Positions 2,115-32,400 of a stretch of DNA of 64,000 nucleotides are shown one piece after another. A program made the position numbers and the translations under genes. A model generated the notes under the pieces. The model had not been told where the DNA came from. It worked only from the letters and a program-made list of their open reading frames with translations, and made no database searches. The stretch comes from Rutstroemia sp. NJR-2017a BVV2 (Eukaryota > Ascomycota > Leotiomycetes > Helotiales > Rutstroemiaceae), in assembly GCA_002946415.1 (NCBI GenBank), contig NJPS01000054.1, positions 806,001-870,000 on the forward strand. Reading direction: 5' to 3'. Position 1 is the stretch's first letter. Each line of letters opens with the position of its first letter.

Positions 2115-2635
2115 TGCTCAGGGTGCTTACTATATGGTCGAGAGTATCAAAGACCCGTCTTGCTCTGGATGCTGTTACCTCTCAGGCAAGAAAGCTCAAA
2201 AATACTAGTGTATTCTTCGTCTTTGGCTGCCAAGTTTCTTTGGATCCTTGCGACACATTAAGGAAATTTAGGTATTAGGGAAACCAAAGTCCTTAGTAAT
2301 GAGACATCGATCTGTTCTATTTTCTCCAGGTTTTCTGCATCAATTCATTGATCGTGCATTTGGACTGCACGTCTCTGCTAGAGTTATTTCTGAGGCTCCA
2401 ACTCCATCTCAACGACTCAGTGATATCCTGATACGTTTTTCTATTTCTTCCATACAAGTTGTCGGCGCGGTCTAGATATATCTTTATACGGGGAGGGAGA
2501 TGCTATGACGTAAGTAAATACCCACTAATACATTCCCCCGCATATATTATGTGTCTGCCTGATCAAAGTCTTCACCTAATCCTTATTCTACACAAAAAAA
2601 GCACAAAATCAATATCAACTGCAAAAGTTTTCCAA
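2115..2635. other. Intergenic, methyltransferase promoter
   Basis: Carrier 3' flank followed by the promoter and leader of the SAM methyltransferase. The reading frame is open upstream of 2636 but has no protein-like composition. An AT-rich TATATCTTTATA element lies near 2476. No further gene is seen. Confidence 0.5.
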
Positions 2636-3415
2636 ATGGCATCAACATACACCGGCGGTCACGGCCCTGGTGCCGTGGGAAGACACTCCATCCGTCGCGC
2701 CTCAACCTGCTGTGCATACTTCCTTCCTCACCTCAAACCCAACCACCGCGTCCTCGATCTCGGCTGCGGTCCGGGCTCCATTACAGCAGACATCGCAGCC
2801 CTCGTCCCGGAGGGATCCGTCATCGGTCTCGATTACGGACAGTCCGTGATCGAAATCGCGAATGCCAAAGCTAAGGAACTTAGCTTAAGTAACTGCTCTT
2901 TCCAAGTCGGTGATGTGATGAGTCTCCCCTTCGAAGATGATAGCTTTGATGTAGTGCATACACATCAAGTTCTCATTCACCTACCCGATCCGGTAAGTGC
3001 GCTAAAGGAGATACGAAGAGTGTGTAAGAAGGGCGGGTTTGTGGCGTGCAGGGAGGCGGATATGGATGATTATGTTTTGTCACCGGATTCAGATGTATTG
3101 AAGATCCCGATAGAAGTGAAGAAGAGTATGATTCGGGAGAAAGGATCGGAAGCGGCTGCGGGGAAGTTTTTGGGGAAGTGGGCGAGAGAAGCTGGGTTTG
3201 AGGATGAGAAGGTTAAGGAGAGTCACAGCTATTTAATGCAGCCGAGTTTTAAGGACGAGGCTATGCAGCAACGTGTTGCTGACTATGCGTTAAGAATGGG
3301 GATTGCAAAGAGCAGGGAGGAGGTGGATAAGTCAATTAAGGGGTGGGAGGAATGGGAGAAGACGGAGGGGTCGTGGTGGAAAACGGGGTGTGGGGAGGTG
3401 GTGTGTTGGAAGTAG
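2636..3415 (+). CDS. Class I SAM-dependent methyltransferase (UbiE/Methyltransf_11-like)
   Basis: A single exon encodes 259 residues. The ATG at 2636 is preferred over in-frame upstream codons because the product then starts with the usual MASTYTGGHGPGAVGRHS region. Motif I of the SAM fold is VLDLGCGPGSI near residue 38. An acidic ribose-binding residue sits in GLDYG, motif II is in GDVMSLPFEDDSFD, and the post-II strand carries VLIHLPDP. The fold is cytosolic with no membrane segment. The substrate cannot be told; such enzymes methylate small molecules including sterols, quinones and secondary metabolites. It stands less than 200 bp upstream of an O-methyltransferase on the same strand and about 7 kb from two UstYa-type genes, so a role in specialised metabolism is possible but unproven. 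Confidence 0.85.
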   Translation: MASTYTGGHGPGAVGRHSIRRASTCCAYFLPHLKPNHRVLDLGCGPGSITADIAALVPEGSVIGLDYGQSVIEIANAKAKELSLSNCSFQVGDVMSLPFEDDSFDVVHTHQVLIHLPDPVSALKEIRRVCKKGGFVACREADMDDYVLSPDSDVLKIPIEVKKSMIREKGSEAAAGKFLGKWAREAGFEDEKVKESHSYLMQPSFKDEAMQQRVADYALRMGIAKSREEVDKSIKGWEEWEKTEGSWWKTGCGEVVCWK

Positions 3416-3607: not shown

Positions 3608-5103
3608 ATGAGCAATTATTCAAGGTTGTCGGACCTAGCGGCCAATATCCAAAGGTCCACTGCTATAATCGACGCATACCTCAAAGAGCACAATCTACCA
3701 GAACCTTCTTTTCATGAAGATGGGCCTGTCGAATTTGGATTGAAATCTGAAGAAGCTCAAAAAGCTTTAGAAACAGCCAAGGCCTCGAGTCTTGAGCTTT
3801 TTGATCTTCTCCAAGGCCCTGCTGTCGCTCTTCGACCAGTTGTAAGCCTGTCTTTGCTCCCGTCCCACAACCTCTAGTTCGACTCATAACAGTAACTCGC
3901 AGTACGACGGTGTAAGTCTCCAAGCCATATATCGGTATGACATCGCTTCCAAAGTGCCCATCCATGGCGATATCTCGTACGAGGAGCTCTCCGCAAAGTG
4001 CGGTCTCGGTGTTGTCAACCTGAGAAGGATTCTACGTTTCGCTATGGCGTGGAATAGATGTTTTACAGAGCCCAGAAAAGGCTTTGTAGCACACTCAGCA
4101 GCCTCTAGAGTTTTAGTTGATAATCCGACGGCTCAATCTGGGCTTGGGTTCATGTTTGAAGAGTGCTGGCAGGCTTTTGCTCATGTAAGTTGGTGTAAGA
4201 CTAAGAGGTTGATAGTCTCTAATTGATAATGATTAGACTCTTGACGCTATCAAGCAACACGGAGAAACAGAAGATGTAACGAAGACTGTGAGTTGCATTG
4301 GTTCTATTCGTATCAATTAAACTGACCCGCTCAGGGCTGGAGCCATTATCACAAAACTGAGAAGAGTTTATGCGAATACTATGCCGATCATCCCGAAATG
4401 GGCCGTCGTATGGCAGAAGCCATGATATGCTTCAGTAGCGCTGTCTCTGAATCATCTCAAGCATCCCACCTAGTCAAAAACTACCCCTGGAACAGTATCT
4501 CCAACGGTAGTGGCGTAATCGTCGACGTCGGCGGAGCACAAGGTCATATCTCCGTCGAACTAGCCCAGACTTATCCAAATCTCAAGATCATTCTCCAAGA
4601 CTTACCCAAAATCCTTGAAGGAGTCAAAGAAAAGCTACCCAGTAATGTGAATGATAGAATCGAAATCATGCCACATGACTTCTTCACCGAACAGCCAATC
4701 CAAGCCGACGCCTATCTCTTCAGTCAAATCTTCCATGATTGGCCCGAGGCGGAATGTGTTAAGATCCTGCGAGCACTAATCCCAAAATTGAGACCAGGTG
4801 CGAAGGTAGTTTGTTATGATCATTTGCTTCCGGAGCCCGGAACGGCGCCAATTCTCAGGGAGAGGGCTGCAAGGTATGCTTCTTTGTTCGTGAGATGTTG
4901 ATAGAAATGCTGATGTTTAGAGTAGGGATATGGATATGATCATGTTCTCACTGTTCAATTCTCGAGAACGGGATGCTGACGACTGGGACCATCTGTTCCG
5001 AAGTGCCGATGCTAGGTTTGGGCAAGTGAAGGCTTGGGTTCCGGAGGGTAGTAGATTGGGGATTATTGAAGCTGTCTGGGAAGGAGACGTCGGAAGAGCG
5101 TGA
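3608..5103 (+). CDS. Winged-helix O-methyltransferase (sterigmatocystin/plant OMT type)
   Basis: Five exons (3608-3841, 3903-4184, 4237-4287, 4335-4873, 4923-5103) give 428 residues, the usual size for this class. All introns are GT-AG and phase-consistent. Residues about 1-180 form the dimerisation/winged-helix part, with YDGVSLQAIYRYDIASKVP. The C-terminal SAM domain has VDVGGAQGHISVELA, an acidic residue in LQDLP, and HDFF. It also has the catalytic-base segment FHDWPEAECVKIL, where His is the expected base, and a C-terminus with LFRSADARFG and GIIEAVWEGD. The last exon uses the acceptor ending at 4922, because the one two bases earlier brings an immediate stop. Fungal relatives methylate phenolic hydroxyls of polyketides and similar metabolites; the acceptor here is unknown. 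Confidence 0.88.
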
Positions 5104-5612: not shown

Positions 5613-7118
5613 CTAAGTTGTCGACCTTCCACCTATGTCTTCAGTATTTGTCCTCAGTCTTCGTCTCCTCTGCAAATCCAAACGTCCATTTTCTCCTTCT
5701 TCTTTTAAAACTCGATCGGTAACCGGTAGCTGAGATTGAACTTTGAGAGCTTTTGGTATCCGCTGAAGCCAGTCGATAAATTGTAAGATCATAAGAATGC
5801 TCCAGCACAATGTCGGTACAGATTTTGACAACCTGGACAGGAGTTCTTGCAAGTCGTCTTCCTGCACCTTCACATCCCCGGTATCCTCGATTGAAGTGTC
5901 ATTCTTGCTCGTGGTAGACGGAGGACCTGAGCATGCAGTTGATATCGATTGAGTTGAGTAGATTGACGAATTTGATGTACCCTCCACGTTGTGCGTCGTG
6001 GAGAGACCTGCTTCACTTCCATTTCTAGACGATTCGATGCTTTGCACAGTCTGAGAGTTGTAGAAATTTGGGTTTCGTGAGTTCAAATAACTCGCACTAA
6101 GGTCATTTAGGGGCTGAGATGCCGGCAGTGAGCTCAGAAGCTGTTCAGCAGTACGGATCGGTCTTCCTGATAACTGTTCCGTACCACCAGAGGCCAAACC
6201 GTTCAATGGTAGGTAGCTAGGTTTCTTTAGAATTGAAGTATGGACTGGCTCCGTGAAAGACACTGGTAAAGCTTCCGGCATTTGCATGGGTATGTCCTGG
6301 AGATTTTCCATCTCCATAGCCTTGGACAAGCCATCTGCTAATGCATCTAGACTGCGATTTGATTTTCCCGGAACGCCTGGATCTATCAGGGTCCATGACA
6401 CACCGTCTTTCTTCTGGCTATTCGGCGGAAATTTTAGCCGATTCATGATTCGATCTTTTGTTCTCCTCAGTTTCCCCTCGATTTCAATCTTGAGGTAGAA
6501 TGGCTGCCGTTCGTGCTCAATCGTGAATCCAGCGTGGAACAGATTACTGTGTAACACTCGACTCTCCAGTTTGTTCTCCGTCAATTCCCACTTTAGCCTC
6601 CTGTACACTTTCTCGCGAGTAGCATCATCTTTATCCTCTGCAAAAAGCAGCTGCCCAGTAAATGACCATCGGCTGCTCAGGACCTTCCGTTTCGATGTAT
6701 CTATCCCAATACCGCCTGCACCAGCGCCAAGGACATCCACATGGGGAGTAAAGCGGTAATTCTTTGTTACTGGTACTTCGTAGAGCTCTCCCGTCAGCCT
6801 TTTAGGACCAAACTGATCTGTGGCAAACAACGAGTTTTCTTCAAAAACCCGATGTTCTTCTAGAGTAACGGACACACTCGCGCTCGATAATTTACAATCC
6901 GCTGGCTGGTCGAAGTTAAGATCCAAATAAATGATACCTCCAGGGTTCTCGTTTTTCCCGATCACGCCCCACTTAGACTTCGAAAGACGGAGTCGACAGT
7001 CAACGTCGACCTTGCCTATTTCTTTGTGACTCAAAAATGTCATTGGTGTCGGCGCACAGCTCAGCAAAGATCTTCCATATCGTCGCGAAATCAATGGTTG
7101 TGGAGCCATAGACGCCAT
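5613..7118 (-). CDS. Conserved fungal protein of unknown function
   Basis: An uninterrupted frame of 501 residues that I do not recognise. The N-terminal half (about 25-250) alternates hydrophobic and polar residues in a pattern typical of a beta-rich domain, e.g. GGIIYLDLNFDQPADCKL and SVSVTLEEHRVF. From about residue 290 it becomes Ser/Thr/Asn-rich and probably disordered. Near the end, CWSILMILQFIDWL is hydrophobic and could be a membrane-associated helix, followed by a basic Arg-rich tail. The last part may contain an unrecognised intron, since its composition changes abruptly. It is transcribed divergently from the gene at 7464 and shares a promoter of about 345 bp with it. Confidence 0.65.
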   Translation of the reverse strand: MASMAPQPLISRRYGRSLLSCAPTPMTFLSHKEIGKVDVDCRLRLSKSKWGVIGKNENPGGIIYLDLNFDQPADCKLSSASVSVTLEEHRVFEENSLFATDQFGPKRLTGELYEVPVTKNYRFTPHVDVLGAGAGGIGIDTSKRKVLSSRWSFTGQLLFAEDKDDATREKVYRRLKWELTENKLESRVLHSNLFHAGFTIEHERQPFYLKIEIEGKLRRTKDRIMNRLKFPPNSQKKDGVSWTLIDPGVPGKSNRSLDALADGLSKAMEMENLQDIPMQMPEALPVSFTEPVHTSILKKPSYLPLNGLASGGTEQLSGRPIRTAEQLLSSLPASQPLNDLSASYLNSRNPNFYNSQTVQSIESSRNGSEAGLSTTHNVEGTSNSSIYSTQSISTACSGPPSTTSKNDTSIEDTGDVKVQEDDLQELLSRLSKSVPTLCWSILMILQFIDWLQRIPKALKVQSQLPVTDRVLKEEGENGRLDLQRRRRLRTNTEDIGGRSTT

Positions 7119-7463
7119 ATCGCTGGAGAATTTATCGATGATGAATCATGAATCTGATATAAGTCGAAAATCTGCAAAATATCGAGGGGAAAACATGCTT
7201 ACAGCCTTAGGATACGCCTCATGGGCGCAGCGCCTCAGCCTCCTTATCGTCGATATATCAGGCAGGCAGTATTGCCAATTGCATTAGCGCCAATTGATTT
7301 ATGCAGATGTATGCACAGAGCTACGGCAAAACTTCCCCATCGAGTTGTGCTTGCAGCATTGTAACTAGAGCTGAAAACAGAATTGGCAGCCTCACTCAAA
7401 ATTTCTCGTTACAAGATTTTCTACTGGGTTTAATTCTGTTGCAAATTCGAAAAATATTGAGCT

Positions 7464-9585
7464 ATGGATGGTAGAGATAATAGGTCAGGGAATAGTGGAT
7501 ATGCTAAGTCAACGGGCGCTGATAGTGGATATGGGTCGACTGCTGGGCCAAGGGCTTCCAAAACTTCCGCCTCACATGAGATTAAGCAACATAAATCGTC
7601 TGAAGAAGTGCCCAAACCATCAAAAAGCGTCTATTTTCAAGATGAAGTTAATGAGGCGGGAAAGAGTCTTCCGGAAGGACGGGACTCGAGATTGGAGTCG
7701 GAGTCGGACTCGGACTTGTACTCGGACGCAAGTGATACAGAGAGCAAAAAAGAGGATAGGACGCCGCAGCAACAAACTTGGAACTCGAGAAAACCCACTG
7801 CTCGAATGCGCGAGAATATGGAATCTCCGCGCACATGCACATTGCGGCGTCATGAAACTGTCTCCCAAGATACAACTATTCATTTTGAGCTAGGCCTTGA
7901 GCTTGACATTGATAGTGATCTTGAGGAGTTTGCCCGCCTCAGGCGTTTTGGTCTTTTCAAAAGAGCGGAGGAGCACTTTCAAAATACTCTGATTGATCAT
8001 ATCAAAGACCCAAGAATCGCGGTAGAATATGTCGACATGCTACTGGAGCAAGGGGCTATACATCGTGTTATAAAGTTTGCGGAAGATCAAGACTTCATCA
8101 AATCATCCCAGGCCGGATCGAGCGATAATGATGAAATCATCGAGCTTTACCGGAGGAATTTTCGATTGATCGTGAGTTGCGCAAGCATTGCCCACCGTGG
8201 TGATTTGATGGATTCCCTGAGGGTTATCGAAGAAAACCCAGTATCCGACAAAACCTCGCCCTCGCACTTCAGTGCTGAGTCCAAATCTGGAGATGCATAT
8301 ATAGAAGTATGACTTTATAGCATGAACGAAGAGAATTTCACTAACAGTCTACGCATGACAGTTACAAATCTACAAGAATCATTTCTGTATTCGGTCCAAG
8401 CTCAGACATTCATCAAACCTGAGCGTCGACTTTGGGATCGAGAACAGCACCCCTCTCTGCTTAGCTGTGTATCATCAGCTTGTGCATGAGGGACGGATAT
8501 GGGAGTTCAAAGATATTTTCTGCGCAGGTCTGAGTTTCTTTGGATCAGAAGCTATATGGTTATTATTTTTCGAAAAATCATGCCGACAGCCCGATTGCTT
8601 GGATCAACTCATTGGGGATTGGAGTCTTGCTGAATGTGATGAGTCATCGCACATGGCTATACTCGAAATTCTGAATACCCTGGTGGAAAGCTGCGTAGAG
8701 CCCCTAGTTGAATACTATCCCAAGGTGGATTGGTGTTTGAAACACGCCGCGAAGGTGGCGGGAGACATGAAAACGCTCAATTCTGAAGCATTAAACTCGA
8801 GACCATACCAAAGATGGGTGTACAACGTGGAACAGCGTAGGAGAAAAGCGACTTCGGATATTCCCTCGAAGAGTAAACTTCTAAAACACATCGACTTCAG
8901 ATACCTCCAAGATTTTGCTGGTATCTCCATACCCACAGAAACGATCCCTATTTACATCCCAGCAGGAACAGAAAACCCAGGCTGGGTGTCTATCAAGCGA
9001 GCGGACGATGACGACGAACCCATAAACATCGCCATGAATGTCTCTCGGGAAAATGGCGATTATAACATGCAAGCTACATGCTTAGCTGAACTGATTTGTC
9101 GCTCCAAAGTACCTAATGATCTAATTCATGAGCTAACAGACGTTTTGGAAGTTGTAATGGGAGATAACATTTCAACTCTTGAAGTCATACTGACTAAATA
9201 TCTCCTTGCTACGGACGAAAAAGCAGAAGCAGATTTATACAACGATCTTTCAAGCCGAAGCTACATTTCTTATCGAGCTTATCCAGTGCTCGGATGGTGT
9301 CGAGCTATATTAGAGGACAGACTTGCTCATGCAGTCGGCCGACCACCCACGCGTATACTCGAGACCAAATTTACGTATGAAGAACTCCCCTCATATTTTG
9401 CCGCTAGAGTGGCTCAGTCAAGGCTTGCAAGCTACCTTCCGCACGGTCAGAAAAATGTAGTTATCGAGGCGAATGCTACTAGTAGCGCGAAACCGGTTCA
9501 CCTGAATATTAAAGAACTGATGGAACACATGAGAAGCCGCTTCGAAATTGTTGATAGGAAAACTGATGACAACCTGTTTGCATAA
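7464..9585 (+). CDS. Conserved fungal protein of unknown function (688 aa)
   Basis: Two exons, 7464-8306 and 8362-9585, are joined in phase 0 over a 55-nt GT-AG intron. The N-terminal 140 residues are Ser-, Lys- and acid-rich and probably disordered, including a SGYGSTAGP segment. From about residue 145 the sequence is helical and contains LDIDSDLEEFARLRRFGLF and repeated Leu/acidic helices. This resembles an alpha-solenoid, but no named repeat can be assigned. There is no signal peptide or membrane segment. The second exon continues the same helical style through STPLCLAVYHQLVHEGRIW, supporting the join. No function can be given. Confidence 0.7.
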
Positions 9586-10040: not shown

Positions 10041-11075
10041 TTAAGGTCCAACAATACTCTGGATATCATCAACCCTCCTCCCTTCAATCCACTCAATTGC
10101 CTCCTGCCTATTCCTACAAACATGTGCCTGCCCCTCACCAGTCGCATCTAGCACGCTTTCACTTCCTTCTAAAGTCATATCTGCCATACATAATATCTGG
10201 TTGCGCAAATACTCAAAGCAATGCGAGGCATGCATATCATTCCGCTCGCCGTCGAAACCAAATGTGGTGCCGTTCGAGATCACCAGTTGGTGGTAGGTAT
10301 CGACTGTGTAGTACAGCTGAGAATATGGTCAGCGGGGCGAACTGGAGCGAGGAAATAATCCAGGGACGTAAGAAAAAAACTTACACAGTGCAGTGCATGA
10401 GTCCACGATGCTTCAAAAATTGGACCAGACCGAATGGGATCATCCACGATGGGCTTCCCCAACATTGGATGCTGCTCGTAGTCCGGGATCTTCACGGTAC
10501 CACTTCCCACTACAAATCATCAGCATTTATCCTCGCCCATAACATTCCAAGAATAATTACTTACATGGCATCAACATGTCCCAATTATGTCTAATATCCA
10601 TCCGATCATCATTACTCGTCATATTCGGCACGAATATGGATTCTTCTGGCTTGAGGAGCGTCCATTTATGTGATTCTAAAATGGAAAAATCAGCATATAT
10701 TCCTTCCCATCAATCAAGGAAGAATGGTCAAGACTCACGAGGAACATAAAGCCCATTAATGTCACCGCCCGTTTCTGTATCCGCCAGACCCCAGCTTTCA
10801 TCGCCATCACGCACTTCCTTTTTCTTCTCTTTCAGCAAGAAAAATAATATCAGACTTTGCAGAGTAATTACAGATCCCCAGCGTACCCAGACGAGAAGAC
10901 ATTCTATTCTTGCGGTTCTTGGTGATGTATGTTGGGAGCGCCGTCTAGATGTGGGTTTGGGAGATGTAGAAGGAAATCGATTGGAGCCCAGAGTCGTGTC
11001 GGAGTCGTTCTCAAGGTCGACATCTTCTATATCGGAGAGGGGCGTGTAGGTTGAGGATTCTTTCTTGGGAGACAT
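10041..11075 (-). CDS. UstYa-family (DUF3328) protein, first copy
   Basis: Four exons on the minus strand (11075-10739, 10675-10565, 10509-10385, 10316-10041) give 282 residues. A Ser/Thr-rich cytosolic N-terminus is followed by one membrane helix near residues 65-85 (WVRWGSVITLQSLILFFLL). The C-terminal part holds both family motifs: HALHC, completed exactly at an exon boundary, and HASHC within MHASHCFEYLRNQILC. The order and spacing (first motif, DTYHQL, second motif, then CMADMTLE) match UstYa-like proteins. In ustiloxin, asperipin and victorin pathways these oxidise and cyclise ribosomal peptides; others act on non-ribosomal products. The neighbouring second copy has the same four-exon plan, suggesting duplication. 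Confidence 0.88.
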
Positions 11076-11824: not shown

Positions 11825-12814
11825 CTATCGACTAATGGTATTATTTTCATGCTTCTCCATAATTCCAATCGAATTCTCCATCGCCCAGTCTAGGACTGCG
11901 TCGAAATTCCTGCACACGTGCCATGAGTTCAACTCAGGCCATGGAGCTGGATCTCCTTCCAGCATATATAATGTGAAGACCCCTACGTCGGCGTTGCATT
12001 GAACATTCATACGTAAAATCTCTAGACAGTGATCTGTAAATTGGTTTGTCAGTAATTTGATTACCATGGTGAGGAAACGGGGACAATACCTGTATGCATC
12101 CGTAGACCTTCCGCGCCTTCCTTGAACTCCCCACTGATATCCTCATACCAATCTCTATATGTGACTTGGCGGAGGAGATTGATGCAGTGAAGTTGGTGGA
12201 ATACTTCTAACCCAACTCGGTAGCCTTCAACGCCAGTTTTTGGGTCCTTGACTTTGAGATGCGTGTCGGGCATGCCAATTACGTCCAGTTTATCTGGTGT
12301 GATCATTTGATCGCCGACTGTTTAAGAGTTAGAATGCACTGCAGTGGAGACTATCAGATGAAAGAAATTACCATCGTAAGAAATGGCTCTCCATGCTCGG
12401 TCCACTTCCGGGCCATATCCAACATATGGTGATCCAGTTCCCATCGTATTATTGAACTTCACTCTTTCATATTCTACTGCTTTTGCAGCCGGTGCTATCG
12501 AAATGGTTAGTTTTTCCGTTTTCCATAGACAGTGAAGATGACTTACACCACGCTGAGAACTCCTGTACATGTCTCAGTGTCGATACCCTCGTGAAATATG
12601 CCGATGTAAACAGGCCAAATGAGAATGATAACAGCACCGCATGTACCAACCACATCCACCTGTTATCGTACTGTCGCCTCGTTGTTGATGATACTTCGGC
12701 CGCTCCTTCTTCATACTCTAATAATGTCGAATCTGTGCTCTCTGCAGATGTTCGGCCGGGTGACACGTCGATGAACTTTTCGTCACCGATAACTCTCTTA
12801 TACTTTGCTGGCAT
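11825..12814 (-). CDS. UstYa-family (DUF3328) protein, second copy
   Basis: Four exons (12814-12547, 12494-12372, 12317-12090, 12033-11825) give 275 residues. After a polar N-terminus there is one membrane helix around residues 53-73 (WMWLVHAVLLSFSFGLFTSAY). The body has the typical SPYVGYGPEVDRAWRAI segment, the first motif in EVFHQLHCINLLRQ, and the second in HTDHCLEILRMNVQC, assembled across the last intron. It ends with WHVCRNFDAVLDWA. This is a textbook UstYa/DUF3328 layout, closer to the family consensus than its neighbour. Members are membrane-anchored and modify secreted peptides or related metabolites. It lies about 1.1 kb from the repeat precursor gene, divergently oriented, so co-regulation from the intervening region is possible. 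Confidence 0.9.
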
Positions 12815-13899
12815 TGCTGCGGTCTTTCCAAAGCTCTACTATTCGGATTGGGATAATGATTAAAGAGGGTATCTAATATGCAAAAGTGGCTTGACCAGCA
12901 GCGTGAACGAAATGAAGGTAGAATAGGAAACAACACGACCAGCGATGAAGGAACGAAGAGAAGGTTCAACAAAACACAGCTACTCGCGATGATAACAAGC
13001 AAGTCCAGATGGAAAGAGTAATTAAATCAATACTAAGTCTCTTTCAAGAAGGTCCGGTCGGCGACGACTGTCCGCGCATAGAGAAACTCGTATCGTCCGA
13101 ACATTGTGATGTTTGAGGATCAAACGCAGGAAAAGGGAACAGGGTCGGTTAAAATAAGCATGGTAGGTACAGCCTATAATTTCCCCACAAGCCTATTTTC
13201 AGTGGCGCTATCGGTAGTTGCTTGGAGTCCATAACACACGCTAGGTTTTGGGTTGCACATGACACATCTTGGCGGGATCATTTGGATGGAGTATGGGGAA
13301 CCTGGGAGGGAAATGGAAACGGGAGAGAAATACGAGCGAATTGAAAGTCAATCTGCATACAGACCCATCAAGGCTATTCTTTCCATCTCATCGGGTCAGC
13401 CTCGCGATGATTAATGCCTCGACGCTCAACCTCCTCCGTCTGATCTTGCGGATTTCCTCTGGGAGCTACCGACGTTTGATACTTGACAGGTACCCTTGAT
13501 ATGGCCATTCTCCCACCACCGAGACCATGCGCATTCTATGATAATGGAATCAGGATGCATCTATCCGCAACCATCACACGCGAGTATCATTCACAGCTCG
13601 TCTCACATCCCTGAAAGAAGTATCACAACATGTCCGGTCGACGAGACAGCGACCCCAATATACCGATGTCATCAGGAAAAGTGGTACATTTTGTCTACCT
13701 AGGGGCTTGGTATGTATAAAGTCCCTCTAACATTCTCATACTTTCTCCATTTTATTTCATTCATCATCACACCATTTCTCACACGAGCTTTCCTTCCATT
13801 CCTTACTTTCCATTCGTTACTGCCGGCCAGTTTTCCCTCTTTTGAACTTTACATTTGATATTTTTCGTCCAATCATTCTCTACCACCCTAACCTTCATC
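12815..13899. other. Intergenic between UstYa-like gene and repeat precursor
   Basis: A candidate bidirectional control region of about 1.1 kb between divergent genes. It holds the TATA element and pyrimidine-rich leader of the precursor gene on the right. No other gene is seen. Confidence 0.55.
13715..13720 (+). promoter_or_regulatory. TATA box of the repeat precursor gene
   Basis: TATAAA lies 185 bp upstream of the start codon and is followed by a long CT-rich tract. That layout is common in strongly expressed fungal genes. The transcription start itself is inferred. Confidence 0.55.
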
Positions 13900-15070
13900 A
13901 TGTACACTCCATCCCTTAAGAGTATGGTCACTTTGGGCCTACTTTTCTTCGGTCCCTTGGCCACCGCTCTTGCTCTCCCCGCTGAGTTTGGCGCTGCATC
14001 TCTCGAAAAGAAATCAATTGTATGTTTACATTCCGGACACATTTCCCAGGTACGGAACTAACATATAATAGCCTTCCAACATCGCCGCAAAATTGGCTCG
14101 TGATATCCCAGCTCTTATCACGCGTCATCACACTGAGGCCCAGATCGCCGCTAAGAAAGCAAAGGCAGCAAAGGGTCAACGTGATGTTGAAGAGAGGGAA
14201 CCTCATCATACCGAAGCTCAAATCGCTGCTAAGAAGGCAAAGGCCGCCAAAGGTCAGCGTGATGTAGAGGAGAGAGAACCTCACCACACCGAAGCCCAGA
14301 TCGCCGCCAAGAAGGCCAAGGCAGCCAAAGGTCAGCGTGATGTTGAAGAGAGGGAACCTCATCACACCGAAGCTCAGATTGCTGCAAAGAAAGCCAAGGC
14401 GGCAAAGGGTCAACGCGATGTTGAGGAACGTGAGCCTCACCATACCGAAGCTCAAATTGCCGCCAAGAAAGCGAAAGCTGCCAAGGGTCAACGCGACGTT
14501 GAGGAGCGCGAGCCTCACCACACTGAGGCTCAAATCGCTGCCAAGAAAGCTAAAGCAGCAAAGGGCCAGCGTGACGTAGAGGAGAGAGAGCCACACCACA
14601 CTGAAGCTCAAATCGCCGCCAAGAAAGCTAAGGCAGCTAAGGGTCAACGTGATATCGAGCTTGAAGAGCGTGAGCCGCATCACACTGAGGCTCAAATCGC
14701 TGCCAAGAAAGCTAAGGCTGCTAAGGGCCAACGCGACGTCGAGATTGAAGAACGTGAGCCTCACCACACCGAAGCTCAGATCGCTGCCAAGAAAGCAAAG
14801 GCTGCTAAAGGTCAACGCGATGTCGAAATTGAAGAACGTGAACCCCACCACACCGAAGCTCAAATCGCCGCAAAGAAAGCAAAGGCAGCCAAGGGTCAAC
14901 GTGACGTCGAAATCGAGGAGCGCGAACCCCATCACACCGAAGCCCAGATCGCTGCTAAGAAGGCCAAGGCTGCTAAGGGGCAGCGTGATGTAGTTGTTGA
15001 GGAACGTGAACCGCATCACACCGAGGCCCAGATTGCTGCTAAGAAAGCTAAGGCTGCGAAGGGACAATAG
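13900..15070 (+). CDS. Secreted tandem-repeat precursor protein (KEP/RiPP-precursor-like)
   Basis: Two exons, 13900-14019 and 14072-15070, span a 52-nt intron with an AACTAACA branch site and give 372 residues. Residues 1-24 form a signal peptide (MVTLGLLFFGPLATALA, cleavage expected after ALA). A propeptide with a dibasic LEKK follows. From residue 59 there are 12 copies of HHTEAQIAAKKAKAAKGQ, separated by acidic linkers: RDVEEREP after copies 1-6 and two-residue-longer forms (RDIEL, RDVEI or RDVVV plus EEREP) after copies 7-11. The last copy ends the protein. The basic units are identical at protein level although their codons differ. Secreted repeat precursors cleaved by Kex2-like proteases include Ustilago Rep1 and dikaritin precursors. 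The repeats here have KK and single Arg rather than KR, and no Tyr, Phe or Trp, so the processing and product are uncertain. Confidence 0.85.
14126..15067 (+). repeat. Twelve tandem 54-nt units with 24- or 30-nt linkers
   Basis: In-frame array within the precursor gene, with period 78 nt (units 1-6) then 84 nt (units 7-11) and a final linkerless unit. DNA copies differ mainly at third codon positions, while the 18-residue unit they encode does not change. Confidence 0.95.
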
Positions 15071-15694: not shown

Positions 15695-21851
<6,157 letters not shown>

Positions 21852-24800
21852 TCACTTATTCTTCTTCCCCTCCAGCGTCTCCCCAGCCCTCAATCCCAAT
21901 CCCACCGCATCCCACTCACCCACTGGCTCCACATACCTATACTCCCTGCCCCTAACCACCCTATCGACCCTCTCCCTAACCTCGGGATACACATCCTTGT
22001 AGGCCTCCCTACCCATCCAACAATCCAGATGTCCATACCCTCTAATCTCCATGCGTTCATACAAGCTATTTTCCCCGCCCAATTCATCTCTCAGCATCTC
22101 CAGTGTTCTGGTCGTGCTTTCAGGGGTCAGGACTTTGTTATCGGAGCCGGAGAATAGGAAGAATGGGATGTTCTTTAATCGGCGGATGTTCTTGGAGGAG
22201 GTGAGCGGATGGAACAAGGGCGCGTTGCCAGTTACGTGGCCTTTAACACCCATGCGCATGAGGAGGTGCAGACATGTCATGTTGACGCCGGAGAAGAAAC
22301 GGTTGGTTTGTCGGTGGGTGGCTTCGTTGAGGTTATTGTGATTCCAAAGACTGTAAACCAAATATATTAGTACTAATTCAGGCAAGCAACAATCAAAGCA
22401 GAAAAGAAAGAGATTAGAAAGAGGGGCTGAATGAGGGGAGGAACATACCGGCCGAAAATCAACGAACAGCGATGACAAGAGACATTATTACAAATCTCAC
22501 ATCTCTGGTCTGGATAAAACCTCAACAACTGATTGACCAATTGCTGGAAATAGGAATCCTCTTTCGTCGACGAACACGAGAACCAATTCCCTCCAAAAAG
22601 CTTGTACAGCTTATCAAACGGAATCGGACCCGCCATCGCCTTCGCCAGATTCAACGTCGCCCAAATGGGATTCATGAAAACCTGCGAACACGTCACGCCC
22701 AGAATCCAACTCGCTGGAATCGTACCATCGAGCAGACCCGACGCGAACGCCACCGAACCCATACAATGCGCAATAGTATAGATAGGATCATGGCCATGCT
22801 GTTTGCGGATCCATTGCAAGCAGGCTTTGATATCGAGACGGGAATCGAAAGTCGTCCAGTTGTCCTCTGCGACCATGAGCTGGCAGATACGATGCACAGT
22901 GACGAAGCAGCGGTAGCCGGCGTGGGTGAAGTAATTGATGGCGTTGACTTCGATGGTTGGAAGGGCGAAGATTTGGTGGTCGACTGAGGCGCCAGGGATG
23001 AGGAAGAGATTCTTGGTTTCAATGGTGGGGTTCTGGGGTTCCCACATGTGAAGGAGGGTCTGAACGCCGTCGCTGGCGACGATTTGGATGGTTTGGTCGG
23101 GAGGGGTATCGTTGATGTAGCCACTGTAGGTGACAGATGGGTATTGGAGGTAGGTGAAGGGGGCGAAGAAAAGGTTGGCGGATTGTTTGGCGAAAAAGGT
23201 CATGAAGCTTGTGGTAGACTGGAGACGGGACCAGAAATTGGTACCAACTGCTTTGAGTGTAAAGAGCTGGGAGAGGAATGCTTTTGGCTCGATGTGCATC
23301 ATGCCACGTCCGAGAATAGCTTTGCTGTTACCTTTCTCGGAGATAGTAACATAGAGAGTTGATGCAGCGCTCCAGAACTTCCATGGTCCCAGCGCTACCG
23401 ACGAGTCGACGATCTTGTATCCATGGAAGTGCAATTGCTTGCCCTCCGTAGAAGTCATATCGAAGTCATATGTCAAGTTACGTGTACCCGGAGCTTGGTG
23501 ATCAACACTGAAGAGATGGAAATCGCCTCGCTGTACCATGAATGGACTTCCGGGTAATGACGCACAAACGAATGTGCCAGTCAACATCGCAGAATGATCT
23601 GCTCGATGGACAACTAAAGACCAATGTTAGCGAATTGAAAATACTCGAAGAAACAAAACTTACTTCTGTGAGTATCAAAAGCCTTAACACTCAAGAAAAA
23701 CCTCGAAGCCTCACAAAGCCCCCTCGCAGTCTTCGCAGCAATCTCATAATCCTCTCTATGATCACCCTTCAAATTCGGCCCTACATGAATGAAGCCCTCC
23801 ATAACCTCAGTAAACCCGAATCCACTTGTTTTCGAATCTGAAGTCTCATCGACCATCGCTGTCGCTCTCACAACTTCATCAGTTTGGACACTGTTAAGTT
23901 GCGGGTGAGGTGGAAGGAACTTCGGCTTGCCGAATAAATCTAGCAGACCGTTCTCCGTCTTGTAATCGATGTTAAGACCAATATTCTTTGCAGCATGCTC
24001 AACTGATCGTTCGGCTAATGCTGTGATTGTTGCGAATGGATTGACGCCAAGAGCGGTGGGGATCACTGAAGCATCTGAGACGATGAGGCCAGGATAAGTC
24101 TCGCTGCCATGTCCGGTAAGAAGCTCACCAAAGTGATTCGTGACACCGTATTGCGCGGTGTTGTCTGAACTCATGCAAGCACCGCCAATGGGATGAACGG
24201 TAATTTCTTGTTGCCCAAGTGCAGCATAGAATGGATTGTTGACGAATGTTCCACCAACAGCCTCTGTCGCCTCCTTGAGAACATTGTTGATCTTCTTAAC
24301 ATGATCGCTTCGACCAACACCAAGGAACTCAAGAAGAGGTTTATCGTCTTTAAGTGTAAGGATTGCTTGATTGCTATCGTGGCTCATGACGAGATAAACC
24401 TGTGTTTTCTCAATGCTTCCCTTCTTGTAGTATGGACCAAGGAATCTGCTTCCTGCAGATGCAAGTGTGTGTTTGAGCTTCTCTAGTTGACTGAGATCTT
24501 CCGGCGGTTCACTTCCTGGGAGCTTTTCAAGCATGAATTGAAATAGAGGAGCAAGCGCTTTCGGTATCGCTCCTTCTTCAATCACATATCCGTCCAGATG
24601 ATTTTCATGACCCGCTCGATTGTCAATGATACCGGTAATAGTAGGACCAATCGGGTTATCAGCTGCAGGCGAAGCTCTACCAATGGCATTGACATCGTCG
24701 TTGGTATTGTAACCGAAAGCGAGCATGTCACCGTTTCCGCTCATTCCCTTGCCGACGCGATCGCTCATGCTCATTCCCAAGCTCCTGCTGCGAAGAAGAA

Positions 24801-26049
24801 TCTCAGTAGTACCAATGGCACCAGCACCAAGGAATACACATTTCTTCGCATGGACCCACATGAGATCCTCGTAGATGTTTGTTTTGAAGCTACCCCTGTG
24901 ACTTCCGTGCCACGCGAAGTACACCAGGTAGCCTTCTTGCTCCGGATGTTTCTGGACGTATCTTACTTCGCATTCGCAGAACATTTCTGCTCCCCAGTTC
25001 CAGGCATCAGCCAGGTAATTGACCAAAGTACTACTCTTGCTCCCGTCGTTGACACCAGTACAATCCATACCAGTCAACGCCGACGGATACATCTCCACTC
25101 CCGTACTGTTTGGTCCACCCAAGAAGCGTGTCGTTTGCTTTGGACGATAAAATTTCTCTTGCATACCAAGGATTTTTGCTTGCTTTTCGAGTAAGGTCAA
25201 CTTTGGAAGCTTTGGCCAATCTTCGGGGTAACTGTGTGGTTCTAAGACGTCTGCTGCGCGCTTGTAGTACGGTTTTAATTCTTCCTCCCGCCTGAGTTCT
25301 TCCGGCCAGCAATCCATTGCTAGCGTTTGGTCGTCGGCTTCGAGGAATATATTCGCATTTAGAAGACTGGTTCCGCCCAATCCGTTTGCAACGAAAGCAT
25401 TTTGACCTCTACCACAAATGAGATGGTAAAGACCTGTCGGATCGCCTTCTTCTACCATCATGCCTGGCAAGAAGCCAGGTGCAAAATTTCCCGAGACATG
25501 AAGCTCACTGGCGGCATGAGCCAAACCAGCAGGATATTCTCCAGGCCACTTTTCTTTCCCTCTCTCTAGTAAGCAAACAGTTTGACCTGCCCTAGCCATC
25601 CGACTAGCTGCGACTGATCCACCGTATCCAGAACCGATCACAACTGTATCGTAAGAATTCCTCAGTAGCTCTACTGGTTTCGAGATACGTGGGAATTCTT
25701 TGCTGTCAAGATCATCGGTGTATGTTCTGATCTTAGCATGTGCTCTGCTTCGTGGTCCTCCCGGAGCTGTCGTCCTCACACCGAACGACTCAATGCGATG
25801 AGATTTTGAGAAACGAGGCGCGTCGTCGCTCAACGCTGGACTTGTGTGTGGAGAGCCATTGGCGCCATTTTGTGAAAGACTATCGATAGATCCACCCATT
25901 GTGCTATCTTTGTCGCTGAGATTGTCGCTGATCTCGGGCCTTAAGCTACTGTGACTATCGTTTGATTTGTCGCCATGTCGGCCTTCATGAGGTCGTTGAT
26001 GTTCCCCGTTCACTGTTACAGGCGAAGGAGTCGGCTCCGCGGAAGCCAT
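21852..26049 (-). CDS. GMC/cholesterol-oxidase-like flavoprotein fused to an alpha/beta hydrolase
   Basis: Three exons (26049-23664, 23613-22449, 22350-21852) give 1349 residues; both introns are GT-AG and in phase. Residues 1-115 are polar and disordered. The FAD-binding fold begins with VVIGSGYGGSVAASRMARAG (about 136-155). Further GMC features include GRGQNAFVANGLGGTSLLNA and, near the end, the C-terminal active-site and FAD part with HPIGGACMSSD and GLIVSDASVIPTALGVNP. The second half (from about 880) is an alpha/beta hydrolase. Its nucleophile elbow is AHCMGS (Cys1079), its acid is probably in SGSDNKVL, and its histidine is in YGHLDCW. Such oxidase-hydrolase fusions occur in fungi and bacteria and are thought to act on sterols or lipids. 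No signal peptide is seen. The ATG at 26049 is preferred over one 54 nt upstream. Confidence 0.85.
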
Positions 26050-29000
26050 GCTGAAAGGTGGTATCGAAACACACGTGGAGATTCGTGATACCCCACAAAC
26101 CAACTATCAGTTGATGCCGGTAGTACTGGAATCAGGTAATGAGTTCCGAGTCAGCAAAGTTGGCGCTAGGGATACTTGGTGAAAGGACAATCCCACAAGC
26201 AAAAGGTGTGTAATACAGTAAAGTTTTACGGAAGACGTTTTCACGTACGAAGATGTTGGAACTTATGCAAACAACCGATGGGCGTTTCATGGAATGCGAA
26301 GCATTTAAGAAAGAATGTAAGCACGGTGGAAAAAAAACGACGTCGTTGATGGTTAGGGGGGGACTCTGCTAGTCCTTAGGGCTGAGTAACTGTGAGCTGA
26401 ATGGAATGTGCCAAAGAAATTGATATTAGAAAGCCACAAGACCCACCAGGTTCAACATCACCCATTCTGGGCGAAGTCGGAGCAATCATGTTAAAGTGAT
26501 AGAGAATGAGACTCTGTGAACAAGACAAGCATTTTCGTAAATGTCTGCTGAAGAATACTCGTGAAATGACCAATGAGAAGAGAGACAGAGTCGACAGATC
26601 TTTCCCATCCCATCCCTGGCTAGGCACGGTAGGTACCAAAATCTATTTCGAACTCCACACTTGCAGCGGTCCGCATCGACCCCTTGATCGATTGGCTGAA
26701 TAGTGGGGGCAGTTCATAACAAAGAGCAGAAAAAACCCATTTTCGAAGAAAAAAGATTTCAGCCGCGCGACCGTAAGCAGTAAGGAGAAGAGAAAGTCTT
26801 AATGTAAGACGAATTCATAATCGAAATTGCTCGATATAGAAAGTAGTAAGAAATCTAAGCAATCAGACCATGAACATCCGGTCCCACAGTAGTTACGGGA
26901 TACTGCTTCGTTGTGTTCTTACTCTTTTCTCTCTCGGTGACTGCGTACTTCCACCTAATCCTCCACATGTGATAGATGACATGACATGACTGTAATTCGG
27001 GCAAAAAAGCGCATTGTATCGGCCAAGATATGTCACTACAGTGAGTGGCTTTCCCCATGTCCATGTTTCCCCATCAGGCACACTGGCGTCTTTTGATGTG
27101 CAGTTCGAGGGATGCTGGAACGCCCGGTCGCCATGCACGTCACTCACCAGCGGTACATTTTCATCTCAGGTATCTCCAATGCAACCCTTCAGAAACCGAA
27201 AACGATGAGAAAACGTTTCCGACCAGGGGGGTATGGGATGAATAGTTCGCTGCGAAACTGTGAACCAGAACGGAACTGGCTAAAATGGAATTCTCCTCAA
27301 ACCGAGGTTCTGGTTTGATACTGTCTCCATACAGGCCTCCCCTACGGTGCACTGCATCTGTGCTGAAGTGGGGTCACTACTGTACTGTAGTAGTTGTCAG
27401 CTTACTCCGAAGCTCTCGCTTTTCCCGACTCGGTCAGTGATGCCTTGCGGGTTCCAATTAGCAGTTCTCGTTCCCCCCACCGACTACTCGTGAAATGAAA
27501 TGAGTGTGGCTGTAAATCTTGGTAGCCTTACCCGTGCTGCAACTTCTCCATCTGATCTGTCGGTAGCACCGAGTCGAGTCGAATCGAGTCTCCTCGAGTC
27601 CTGTCAGGTCAGCACTTAACTGTGAGGAGCTGCGAGATGATAACAATGATTCGATTCGACTGATTTTTACGAGTGTTTCAAGCACTGTTCATCGTTGTCA
27701 CCAACCGTGTTGCTGCCAGTTATTCCAGGACATAAAATACTCTATTTTCGGCTTATCTTATATCATGTCACCTCAAACCTTTTCACGGCTGCCGTTCGGT
27801 TTTCCTGGCCGACTTCAGGTGTCTGTTTCAGGCAGGTATGTCCGTCGCTAGGCACGCTTGTATTCTTCCATCCTTCCTCCTTCCTGCCGCAACCGCGTAC
27901 TATCACTGCCCCTCCAACTATCAATAGTGTCTTTCATTGTTGATAGGTGGTATCAATACGCAGTGTGTGATTCAAAAAAGCCTCGAAAATTGCCCGGCCA
28001 CTGACTAGACAAGAACAGCCCCAGTTCCTTGTGCCGAAAAAGTTGTCCGGATCCTACGGAGAAAAATCCGTTTATTCTCACAGTATCTTTAACTCATCCC
28101 TTATTTCCATCCCTACCTTACCTTGGCCCCAAAGCTCTTCACCCACCGAGCAGAGCCAAATACGGATCCAAGCGAGCCCCAGACGACCACATCCCGTATT
28201 CGCAGATCACAGGATTAAATGAACGATTGCGCCGCCAATTAGCACACCATCTATCCGTGCCCTTTCACTAACCATCAGTATTTTCTGCAACACGACCACA
28301 CACGCGGCCAGTCTCTTCAAAAGCATCTAGCGAAACGTCGCGCTGCCCGCCCCCATTCTTCGCGGCTACGCACATCTCGGATTTCATTGGACATCGTCGT
28401 ACATTATATGACCTCATATTAGATTTCACGTCTTACATATTCTAATCCTCCGGAAAGAAAAGGCGAGAAATGGTGAGGCTCGACCACAGTCAGGAACGAA
28501 GGAAGGAAGCAAAGCCCTAGGGACAGGTACCGTGGTCCGTAGGGTGTCACAAAAGTACGAGCAAAGGGCACTAGCGACCCAGTAACTTAGTTCATTAGTT
28601 ACACCGTTTCTATCCTTAGCACACCACTACTCCACCCAGCAACTTCTGTACCGGTAAAACTCCAGCACCAAAAAAGCCTAAAAGCCACAAACCAGGAACG
28701 AACAAGGAAGATGGCAATGCCCCAAATCCGAGTCAGCGAGAAAACGTGGTGAGTGGATCCGCTTTACTGTACGAAGTAGTCGTTTAAATTTCTGGCTCCA
28801 CTCTGTTTCCTCGTTCACCGAGTGAGTGGATTTCCCATCTTTCTCTTGTCGATAAGGCAGATAGATTGGCATACCCACCTGCTCGTAAAGTACCGAGTTA
28901 GCATCCTCCATCGCGTGCACCACCATTGACCCCTTCCTTCTCCGGTGTCTTCATTCGTGCGACGGGAGTTAACCTCCGCAAATTACTGTGCTGCGCCGCG

Positions 29001-29482: not shown

Positions 29483-32400
29483 CTAATCCTGCTCTCCGTT
29501 TGTCGAAGCCCTAGCTTCAAGAAGAAGTTCAATGATGGCATCGCCCTCATCGCTCTTTTCGTTCTTTTCGTTCTCTTCAGTTTCCGGACTACTAGTAGCA
29601 GCAAATCGTGCCCACAAGAGCGCCGACCTCCCCGCAATATCCTTCACATCTGCTCTCGCCCCCGCTTGAAGTAGTATTTTCACGATACCCACATGACGTT
29701 TATTAACAGCATCCAGCAGCGGCGTAAAACCAAGATTCGTCTTCCGCTCGACATCCGCACCCCTCTCCAGCAGGAGTTTGACAAAGTGCTCATTTCCGCA
29801 CTTCGCGGCAATATGGAGCGCGGTCTGGCTGCCGAGGAAATCCCTTCCGGCATTCTTGTTGACGTCGGCGCCGTTTGCGAGAAGAAGCTCTACGCCGCGG
29901 ACGAAAATAGTCCCCACAGCGAGAAATAATGGCGTTATGCCGTTTACGTCTTGTGTGTTTACGTCCGCGCCATTGGAGATGAGATAAGACATCATTGGGA
30001 GCTGTTTTGCTACCGTCGCGAAATGCAGAGGCGTTCTTCCGCTCTTGTTTGCGGGATCCACGCCGGGGTAGATCTCGAGATAGAGTGAGGCTAGCGCTGG
30101 AGCCCCTAAGGTGGCGAGGACATGTAAGCCAGTGAGCTCAGAGTCGGGTGTGAGATAATAATGAAGCCCCAAGTGATGGTGCGCAATAGAATATGCTATC
30201 ATCATGCGCCGAGACTTGAACAAGAGGGTGAAGAGCTTCGCCAGACTTGGCCGAAGGGACGATTTTGGAGCGTGGGAGAGATAGAAGCAGGCTGCGTAGT
30301 TAAAGAGGGGCAAACGCCCTTCAAGATCCAATATACTCTCTTTCTTGCGTGTTCGGTGAGGCATTCGAGCACGTTCAGTAATGTCTTGGGCCAAGAGATA
30401 TCTATAGGTTTTGTATCCCTCTTTGCAACCGCGATCGAAAGAATCTTCCAATTGTTTACTAACATCATCAAAGCTCAGATATAGAAGACAAGTCTTAAAT
30501 ATCTCGTGGTGAGCATCTGGGAGCACCAATGAATTTCTGCTAAAGAACTCCTGGACTGTGAAGTGTACAAGTCGGACTTCTTGGCTGGAGGGCTCAATAA
30601 TAACAAGCCCGCCACAAACATCTACAATACTGTCGGGATCTGGTTCATTTTCCGGATCAATAGAATGCGGTAGCTCTTCATCATCGCTCCACTCGATGGA
30701 TAATGCTAAAGAGAGTTCTTTGACACCCAGGGGTCGCTGAGACGTTGAGACCCATTGAAGGATTCGTATGCCATATTCATTATCAGGTTCGGCCTGTTTC
30801 CTGATTCGTTCAAGTGTGTCTTGATAGTTCGCTTCTAGTTTTGACGGGAGTGTTTGAAGCGCTTTACGAATCTTGGCTGGTGTACGTTCAGTCAAGATTC
30901 GTTCAATCTGGAGAACCGCCATAAGGTACCTAAATGATTGAATCGTCAGAATGATGAGACCATGCCGAGCACAGCATATTCAAGGTCAAATAGCCAGTAA
31001 TACGTACATCCCACAAGCTCGATTCGTAATTTCATCGATGATTTGTTCTTCCAAATCATCCTTAGCTATTCGCTTCAAAAACGCAGGATTTCCTCTGATC
31101 CTGTGCCTCAAATATGATTTAATATCGACATCTCGTGCAATAATCTCGATCTGAGGATCTGCTACTAGTGCTGAGTTGATATCCTCAAAATTCGGTCGGC
31201 TTGTGATCAAGGTTCTGACAGACAGCTGTGGTATCCTTTTTAGCGTATCAAGGACGAGTGTCCTTTCTTCAGTAAGAGGACACTCATCAAGTGCATCAAC
31301 AAGAATGTAGACTTGATCATATGCTCCACAGAGAGCTACTAAAATAGTCCGAAGCTCTTCGAATAACAACTTACTGCTGCCGTTGTTATGCTCCTTGTAG
31401 AGCTTAGGGAGTATTCCGAGACCTTGCCCCTTTTCAGCTAGTTGTCTAGCTATACTGGACAGTATGTTGAAGGCAGTCGGGCTCTGTTTGTAATCGCAAT
31501 AGAAGAATGCCACCCCGACATTGTGGCTCTGGAAGTTCGTTTGGATATGATTGACCACCATGGAGCTAACAAGCATCAGCTAAGAATCCGAGGCGGTAAA
31601 GGAGTGGACTACTCGTTTACCGCCGTACTAGTACGGTACTACTCCGAGTAGTACGGCGAGCACATACCTCATGACAGTCTTACCAGCGCCGGCTGTCTAA
31701 TATCAGTATCTGCCAGCTATCCGGTCAATATGACTGTATGAGTGACTTACGATGCCCTGGACACCAGAGTATTGCACTCGAGCTCTGGTTTTCTAGCCAC
31801 CTGACGAATTCCGGCGTCTCCAAGAGCCAACCTCCTGTCTCCTCTTGGTGTCGAGAGAAGGTATCCTGCTGCTTATCGTACATCCTCAGTGGTGAGACCC
31901 AATCAAGAATTTCCCCCACTTTATTCTCTTCTAAGTCGAACCGCATTCCTTGAACGTCCAGACGAGTTTCTTCGAGCTTTTGAGTAACGACCCCGAGACT
32001 TTTATCGGCTCGAGCAGTTGCAGCACATGTGCCTCGTCTAGATATGTAGAGTAAGCAGCCTGCAATCCAAGAATAGTCTTTGACTCGTTGACATACAATA
32101 TTTCGGTTGAAAGCCTCATATTCAAGTAGTTCGTGTGAGAATTCAGGCGAGTTCTCAGTGCATCCACATCTTCCTTCATCATGATTTGCCATTTGATCTT
32201 CTTGCCAGACACTGCAACTAGTATCAAGGGCGGGATATCAGTATTCATTCTTCGCACGTTTCTCATACATTGAAAATTTGATGTAGCTCTACAAGTCCCG
32301 AGAACCCCTATGCCCCATAGTGCTACAATGAATATTCCTAACTTGGAGACCTAGAGATCAAGGAAATAAGCAAGAATTCTTCGTCACACTGCCACTCACC

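Follow-up and report, generated by a model that had tools for sequence, protein, structure and literature searches.

The closest described relatives of the gene reported here are the fungal KEPs, and in particular KEP type G-3 (#6 of Umemura 2020), which comprises 64 members from 20 genera and is marked by a di-histidine motif; DUF3328 genes lie near 57 of the 64, and the type carries no pheromone annotation (PMC7329392). Within KEPs accompanied by DUF3328, 65.6% of the repeats contain Tyr (PMC7329392), which leaves a third without it, so the absence of Tyr is not rare. The HH motif is found in 5.7% of KEPs with DUF3328 and in 3.9% of those without (PMC7329392); because these frequencies are similar, HH as such is no marker of UstYa substrates. 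KEPs annotated as pheromones are almost never accompanied by DUF3328, and Umemura argues that the yeast mating factors are linear (PMC7329392). A Ste13-type code, a fixed neighbour set or a product for G-3 is not discussed in the available part of that paper.

Two other systems invite comparison. In the dikaritins (ustiloxin, phomopsin and asperipin-2a), a signal peptide is followed by tandem cores, and a UstYa/DUF3328 gene lies beside the precursor gene; methyltransferases are also present in the ustiloxin and phomopsin clusters (PMC6941272). In alpha-factor precursors, a Kex2 cut is combined with trimming of dipeptides by Ste13 (PMC6339444, PMC7329392).

Here we describe a repeat-encoding gene in a 64,000-nucleotide stretch of the genome of Rutstroemia sp. 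NJR-2017a BVV2 (the window). Judging from its motif, its DUF3328 neighbours and the overlap of genera, the gene is very probably a member of KEP type G-3. As in that type, HH is present (in 12 of 12 units) and UstYa genes are near (two within 4 kb). The G-3 genus list includes Rutstroemia and six of the ten genera in which we found named homologues: Botryotinia, Talaromyces, Capronia, Fonsecaea, Trichoderma and Scytalidium (PMC7329392).

The gene shares with the dikaritins tandem cores and adjacent UstYa/DUF3328 genes, and its hydrophobic start, judged by eye, resembles their signal peptide. Unlike ustiloxin, phomopsin and asperipin, which have a Tyr core with an ether bridge, its core is Tyr-free, and its family has X-Ala/X-Pro dipeptides before the core and a 10-residue head that is near-invariant over four classes. 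With ascomycete alpha-factor-type precursors it shares Arg followed by Ste13-removable X-Ala/X-Pro dipeptides and several identical peptides per precursor; unlike them, its repeat exon has no Pfam match, its units have no Trp and UstYa genes are adjacent. We consider it likely that the gene is a Kex2/Ste13-type repeat precursor, of the KEP/dikaritin kind, for a secreted, UstYa-modified, Tyr-free small peptide.

The precursor gene and its repeat array

The gene encodes 372 amino acids and contains one intron (Table 1). Its start can be aligned with those of homologues, and the hydrophobic N-terminus, judged by eye against the signal-peptide criterion of KEPs, suggests that the encoded protein is probably secreted.

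Table 1. Features of the precursor gene and its UstYa/DUF3328 neighbours (positions in the window)
Feature	Position	Strand	Details
UstYa/DUF3328 gene B	10041-11075	-	exons 11075-10739, 10675-10565, 10509-10385, 10316-10041; 282 aa
UstYa/DUF3328 gene A	11825-12814	-	exons 12814-12547, 12494-12372, 12317-12090, 12033-11825; 275 aa
Divergent intergenic region, precursor/gene A	12815-13899	.	from gene models; putative shared promoter region
Precursor gene	13900-15070	+	one intron (GT...AG)
Precursor exon 1	13900-14019	+	40 codons: MYTPSLKSMVTLGLLFFGPLATALAL (hydrophobic, signal-peptide-like) and the first part of the propeptide
Precursor intron	14020-14071	+	GTATGT...TAG, branch-like CTAAC; by eye
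Precursor exon 2	14072-15070	+	propeptide PSNIAAKLARDIPALITR, then repeat array, stop
Repeat array	14126-15067	+	12 identical 18-residue units HHTEAQIAAKKAKAAKGQ and 11 spacers (RDV..EEREP, 8-10 residues); unit starts 14126, 14204, 14282, 14360, 14438, 14516, 14594, 14678, 14762, 14846, 14930, 15014
Unit 1	14126-14179	+	after ...ITR, no dipeptide; head HHTEAQIAAK, tail KAKAAKGQ
Unit 12	15014-15067	+	ends GQ-stop; the other 11 units read GQ|R

Direct comparison confirms the statement of the initial annotation that the 18-residue unit is unchanged in all 12 copies. The spacers are not invariant: RDVEEREP occurs six times, RDVEIEEREP three times, and RDIELEEREP and RDVVVEEREP once each. Counted with its spacer, each of the 12 repeats is 26-28 amino acids long, against the KEP criterion of at least three tandem repeats of at least eight residues. 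Tyr, Phe and Trp are absent from all 12 units and all 11 spacers.

A second copy of the gene on another contig (C74) is probably not a paralogue. The contig looks redundant: two matches on contig C25 recur on C74 at the same coordinates, and where sampled its end is 100% identical to contig C50 (20 kb, plus two of five further 2-kb pairs, at 450 and 600 kb of C50). No match was seen for the pairs sampled at 950 kb and at 1170 kb, or for a pair lying outside the projected overlap. A paralogue as the source was rejected, as the second copy looks like assembly redundancy.

Codon divergence and selection on the units

The initial annotation had counted differences at 14 of 26 codons between units 1 and 2, all synonymous, and our recount agrees. 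The unit-by-unit comparison that it proposed gives the same picture for the whole array: in all 66 pairs, the differences (at 4-13 of the 18 core codons, mean 8.86) are purely synonymous. The observed mean is about 96% of the 9.26 expected for independent draws from the array's own codon usage; the codon usage of six other coding stretches in the window gives 10.97, a rough figure, as some of these are raw ORFs. Shuffling codons within units gives a mean of 9.59 (P = 0.0008); shared ancestry of the units thus leaves a weak trace in the codons, and neighbouring units show no significant excess of similarity (P = 0.11). The near-saturation of codon choice between units supports an old array.

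The identity of the units is not due to chance. Among the six reading frames, the coding frame alone has zero amino-acid difference between units; in the other five, mean differences are 0.17-0.49, with 11-12 distinct peptides. The array is also spanned by an antisense ORF of 379 codons (13928-15067, minus strand), the peptides of which vary between units. This ORF seems to be a side effect of the codon pattern; as a conserved entity, an antisense gene was rejected, the minus-strand frames giving 12, 11 and 12 distinct peptides among the 12 units.

The twelve units allow selection to be tested cleanly inside the array: synonymous sites approach saturation, and no residue has changed. We ran forward simulations matched to the codon divergence on a star tree and a coalescent tree, with 400 runs per tree, a kappa of 2 and silent sites unselected. 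At a dN/dS of 0.05, none of 400 runs gave identity of all 12 units; at 0.02 the two trees gave it in 0% and 0.25% of runs, and at 0.01 it was obtained in ~3%. When residues 11-18 are considered by themselves, the three frequencies become 0, ~6% and 21-22%. The simulation puts the dN/dS of the array near or below 0.01, which bears out the earlier claim of selection on the peptide and identifies it as purifying.

The initial annotation had also disputed a recent expansion. In this it is supported as regards the age of the array, and with codons near saturation a recent expansion is out as the sole account; there is also a combined account. A fairly recent expansion could have been followed by diversification of synonymous sites through selection against DNA repeats (recombination, repeat-induced mutation), in which case dN/dS overstates the constraint. 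Since all 23 related arrays described below have varied tails, the frozen tail of the window gene does suggest expansion from one unit after the lineage split. The codon divergence (8.86 of 18), however, is not above that of random choice, whether from the array's own usage (9.26) or by shuffling (9.59), so extra diversification is unneeded, and we regard this combination as unlikely. The codons of the array lean toward C- or T-ending forms (GCT or GCC for 55 of 72 Ala, ACC or ACT for 12 of 12 Thr), which may indicate high expression.

Near-invariant head, variable tail and putative processing code

Homologues were sought among 5.8 billion proteins using shared 5-residue words (E <= 0.001), and the 7991 candidates with the most shared words were scored. 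At least 23 homologues were found, 13 of them with an organism name, from ten named genera. These fall in the Leotiomycetes, Eurotiomycetes, Sordariomycetes and Lecanoromycetes; the classes of Varicellaria, Xylogone, Capronia and Rutstroemia were looked up.

We counted 139 units in the 23 homologues, each within three substitutions of HHTEAQIAAK; a degenerate copy in one protein (P0006, LADIEAQLAALEAAAK) was excluded. Residues H1, H2, T3, E4, A9 and K10 are found in 139 of 139 units, A5, Q6 and I7 in 138 each and A8 in 133. A search by words favours conserved heads, but it did not pick the many units of a protein one by one. From residue 11 onward the units are variable, and every one of the 23 arrays has 3-7 distinct eight-residue tails. 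The tails are rich in Ala (31%) and Lys (30%) and net positive in 129 of 139 cases (93%). The conserved product would therefore be the head HHTEAQIAAK, not the whole 18-mer, and the frozen tail KAKAAKGQ seems peculiar to the window gene, an unusual state among the arrays of the family.

These comparisons divide two statements of the initial annotation. It had proposed the repeat unit as the functional product; a released peptide is likely, given the processing code described below, but the whole 18-mer is not what is conserved. It had also named free variation among orthologous arrays as evidence against its reading, and such variation is seen at residues 11-18, while residues 1-10 are near-invariant over 23 arrays and 139 units. 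The selection argument appears to hold for the head across the family, and for the tail only in the window gene. Neither the head-only conservation in homologues nor the two adjacent UstYa genes had been noticed.

Most homologues contain a second repeat. Between the HH units of 21 of the 23 (P0002 and P0004-P0023 in our numbering) lies DEFGPWD..DEFGSW or DDEFGSW, which contains Phe and Trp and may represent a second peptide product. It is absent from the window gene and from the precursors of Botryotinia narcissicola and Ciborinia camelliae; a search of the whole Rutstroemia genome for it gave 22 matches at E <= 1, all of them HH units and their copies on C74.

The literature was searched for the same motifs. 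HHTEAQ, HHTEAQIAAK and EFGPWD are absent from the main texts of the openly licensed papers searched, and DEFGSW occurs there once, in a paper on HLA peptides. HHTEAQIAAK is not among the conserved motifs named in the available part of PMC6339444, and the 109-residue Trichoderma reesei precursor of PMC7099791 is different from the HH precursor. Among the openly licensed papers listed, we found no work on an HHTEAQ peptide or a G-3 product.

The positions of the units suggest how they would be released. Between the last Arg and His-1, 138 of the 139 family units have nothing but 0-5 X-Ala/X-Pro dipeptides (EP 47, none 28, EA 25, DP 12, others fewer), whereas shuffled upstream 16-mers fit this code in a mean of 14.8 and a maximum of 30 units over 2000 shuffles. 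The one unit that departs from the code, unit 1 of P0013, comes after the signal region. All 12 units of the window array fit Arg plus (X-Ala/Pro)n, 11 with EP and one with no dipeptide, and His-1 is fixed while the length of the preceding spacer varies. Such an alpha-factor-like code would set the released N-terminus at His-1; the GQ|R junctions inside the array and the GQ-stop at its end suggest a released C-terminus at GQ.

Processing would then probably proceed as follows. The precursor would enter the secretory pathway, where Kex2 or a Kex2-like protease would cut after the Arg before each unit and a Ste13-type dipeptidyl aminopeptidase would strip the X-Ala/X-Pro dipeptides (Glu-Pro in the window gene). 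A further cut, behind the Arg next to GQ, together with Kex1-type trimming would leave a free C-terminus. The released peptide would start with His-His and, for the window gene, would be HHTEAQIAAKKAKAAKGQ, twelve per precursor. Its calculated monoisotopic mass is 1887.044 Da ([M+3H]3+ 630.022), against 2113.139 with an EP extension and 2043.145 with an Arg extension. In the Rutstroemia genome we found one match to a proprotein-convertase P-domain (P_proprotein) and, besides its assembly duplicate, one DPPIV-type (DPPIV_N) locus.

The cut sites themselves are not uniform. At P2, the window array has Glu in 11 of 12 cases (ER|EP) and Thr (TR) in one; such sites are not the dibasic ones that Kex2 prefers, and this counts against the KEP reading. 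KEP repeats are defined as lying between KR, KK, RK or RR, and the only dibasic pair in the window units is a KK in the middle of the 18-mer. As a cut site this KK is disfavoured, given that His-1 follows Arg plus dipeptides in 138 of 139 units of the relatives and that the last unit ends GQ-stop. In relatives, the sites are KR in 78 of 138 units and RR in 7 (85 of 138 together).

The Glu at P2 would also suit an intact repeat protein, cationic and cell-surface or protective in role, that is not cut into peptides at all, as would the Ala/Lys-rich, mostly net positive tails. The presence of 0-5 dipeptides after Arg with His-1 fixed, however, is explained by processing and not by an intact protein, and the relatives use KR at more than half of their sites; we consider an intact product very improbable. 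Most likely, the gene serves to produce a small released peptide, which probably carries a chemical modification.

UstYa neighbours, proposed modification and the wider window

Genes A and B (Table 1) lie 1.1-3.9 kb from the precursor gene. Gene A matches PF11807 with 185.7 bits and contains HQLHC and HTDHC; gene B matches with 59.3 bits (cut-off 25 for both) and contains HALHC and HASHC. In having two HxxHC motifs and PF11807 they resemble CctR and other DUF3328 dicopper oxidases, and in CctR this motif forms a dicopper site (PMC12435403). CctR hydroxylates cyclochlorotine; the expected substrate of A and B, in contrast, is a ribosomal precursor or its peptides (PMC12435403 for CctR). Among the matches listed, both motifs are present in 82 of 120 homologues of A and 63 of 88 of B, the rest including many partial proteins. 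With A as the only query, no related solved structure was found by sequence at E <= 0.01. Each of the two proteins has counterparts in Rutstroemia sp. NJR-2017a (strains BBW and WRK4) with an identity of 96%. Merging of matches leaves ~48 UstYa loci in the genome, and regions no further than 5 kb from at least two of them, the A/B pair included, make up only 0.25% of its length.

The association recurs in relatives. For 9 of the 13 named relatives, a precursor shares a contig, identified by its recorded length, with a homologue of A or B: both in two, A alone in two and B alone in five. Both are found in Varicellaria (locus numbers 001557/001556/001555) and, by contig only, in Talaromyces stipitatus. 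A without B is seen in Ciborinia (010197/010198) and Fonsecaea multimorphosa (07039/07040). The relatives with B only are Capronia (10087/10089), Icmadophila (002123/002125), Trichoderma chlorosporum (310658/310655, where the numbering need not follow position) and, by contig, T. gracile and Xylogone. The other four (Botryotinia, Talaromyces amestolkiae, Fonsecaea erecta and Scytalidium) are unpaired on the contig among the best 120 of 201 homologues of A and the 88 listed homologues of B. These counts cover proteins clustered at 90% identity, a step that may hide members. For Xylogone and Scytalidium, the A homologue listed is on a different contig from the precursor. That four of 13 precursors are unpaired and that the full trio occurs in only two counts against a UstYa-modified KEP. 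Homologues of A and B with adjacent locus numbers, and no precursor among the listed matches, occur in Chlorociboria (g277/g276), Venustampulla (00091/00090) and Hymenoscyphus (10574/10573). Trichoderma reesei is also among the species with a listed homologue of B.

As for the substrate, homologues of both A and B are listed for Botrytis species and a homologue of A for Ciborinia, and the precursors seen from the Botryotinia and Ciborinia groups, like the window gene, are without the second repeat. This suggests the HH peptide rather than the Trp peptide as the common substrate of the enzymes, on the strength of three precursors.

The adjacent UstYa genes make a modified peptide likelier than a plain one. 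A secreted peptide that stays linear and unmodified, in the manner of a pheromone or hormone, while the UstYa pair has another substrate, would accord with the alpha-factor-like code, with the conserved head free of Tyr and Trp, with the linear form argued for yeast mating factors and with the roughly equal frequency of HH in KEPs without DUF3328 (PMC7329392). Yet UstYa genes are adjacent here, at least one homologue accompanies the precursor on its contig in 9 of the 13 named relatives, and pheromone-annotated KEPs are almost never found with DUF3328, which accompanies 57 of 64 G-3 members (PMC7329392). We therefore think a linear product unlikely. The initial observation is real and is probably explained in kind by a repeat precursor for a released peptide that UstYa enzymes modify.

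Under this explanation, the two enzymes, of a dicopper-site family, would oxidise the conserved head, whether by hydroxylation, by desaturation or by crosslinking of side chains. As Tyr, Trp and Phe are absent from the unit, the candidate residues are His, Lys, Ile or Thr. If the UstYa pair does act on the HH peptide, a Tyr ether bridge like those in ustiloxin, phomopsin and asperipin is impossible, and the known range of a recently recognised copper-enzyme family would be extended.

UstYa association and a cationic tail would also fit a toxin or antimicrobial RiPP of the ustiloxin or phomopsin kind, aimed at competitors or hosts. Two ORFs with methyltransferase domains, of which the second belongs to the O-methyltransferase family PF00891, lie on the plus strand at 2432-3412 and 4326-4898, at a distance of 5.1-7.6 kb past gene B, and such enzymes are present in the ustiloxin and phomopsin clusters (PMC6941272); they could belong to a wider cluster. 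The Tyr core is absent, however, and no tyrosinase or transporter of the ustiloxin kind was found in the 20 window frames scanned with Pfam, which cover part of the genes of the window. The head is moreover near-invariant over four distant classes, which fits a conserved target or chemistry (e.g. a self-signal) better than a diversifying toxin. We judge a toxin quite unlikely. The presence of such a head in a pheromone-like precursor suggests a peptide signal, or a product resembling a cofactor, that is shared among fungi; this idea can be tested in laboratory fungi.

A broader proposal can be made only tentatively, as a possibility that we do not favour: an ancient and widespread class of fungal RiPPs in which pheromone-type processing would be combined with two dicopper UstYa oxidases acting on a Tyr-free His-His-Thr-Glu head. 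The result would be a new modification of His or aliphatic residues, possibly in a copper-binding or hormone-like signal that has hardly changed between lichens and Trichoderma.

Further features were seen in the window. Between the methyltransferase ORFs and gene B, frames 5616-7145, 7461-8309 and 8359-9582 have no Pfam match, and a mitochondrial carrier is encoded at 1209-2111. On the other side of the precursor gene are GH32 genes of invertase/inulinase type, probably two (15695-19768, minus strand), a large GMC oxidoreductase-like ORF (23617-26103, minus strand) and, near the latter, an ORF without Pfam match (21855-22484). NACHT-type (NPHP3_N) and ankyrin-repeat pieces occur in successive frames at 29486-32237 (minus strand) and probably belong to a single NLR-like gene, interrupted by introns or by breaks in the frame. 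Finally, a 22-bp tandem repeat (consensus CCACAGGCTTCGTAAGCCTGAA, 3.9 copies) is located at 54469-54554 and contains an inner palindrome-like AGGCTT...AAGCCT.
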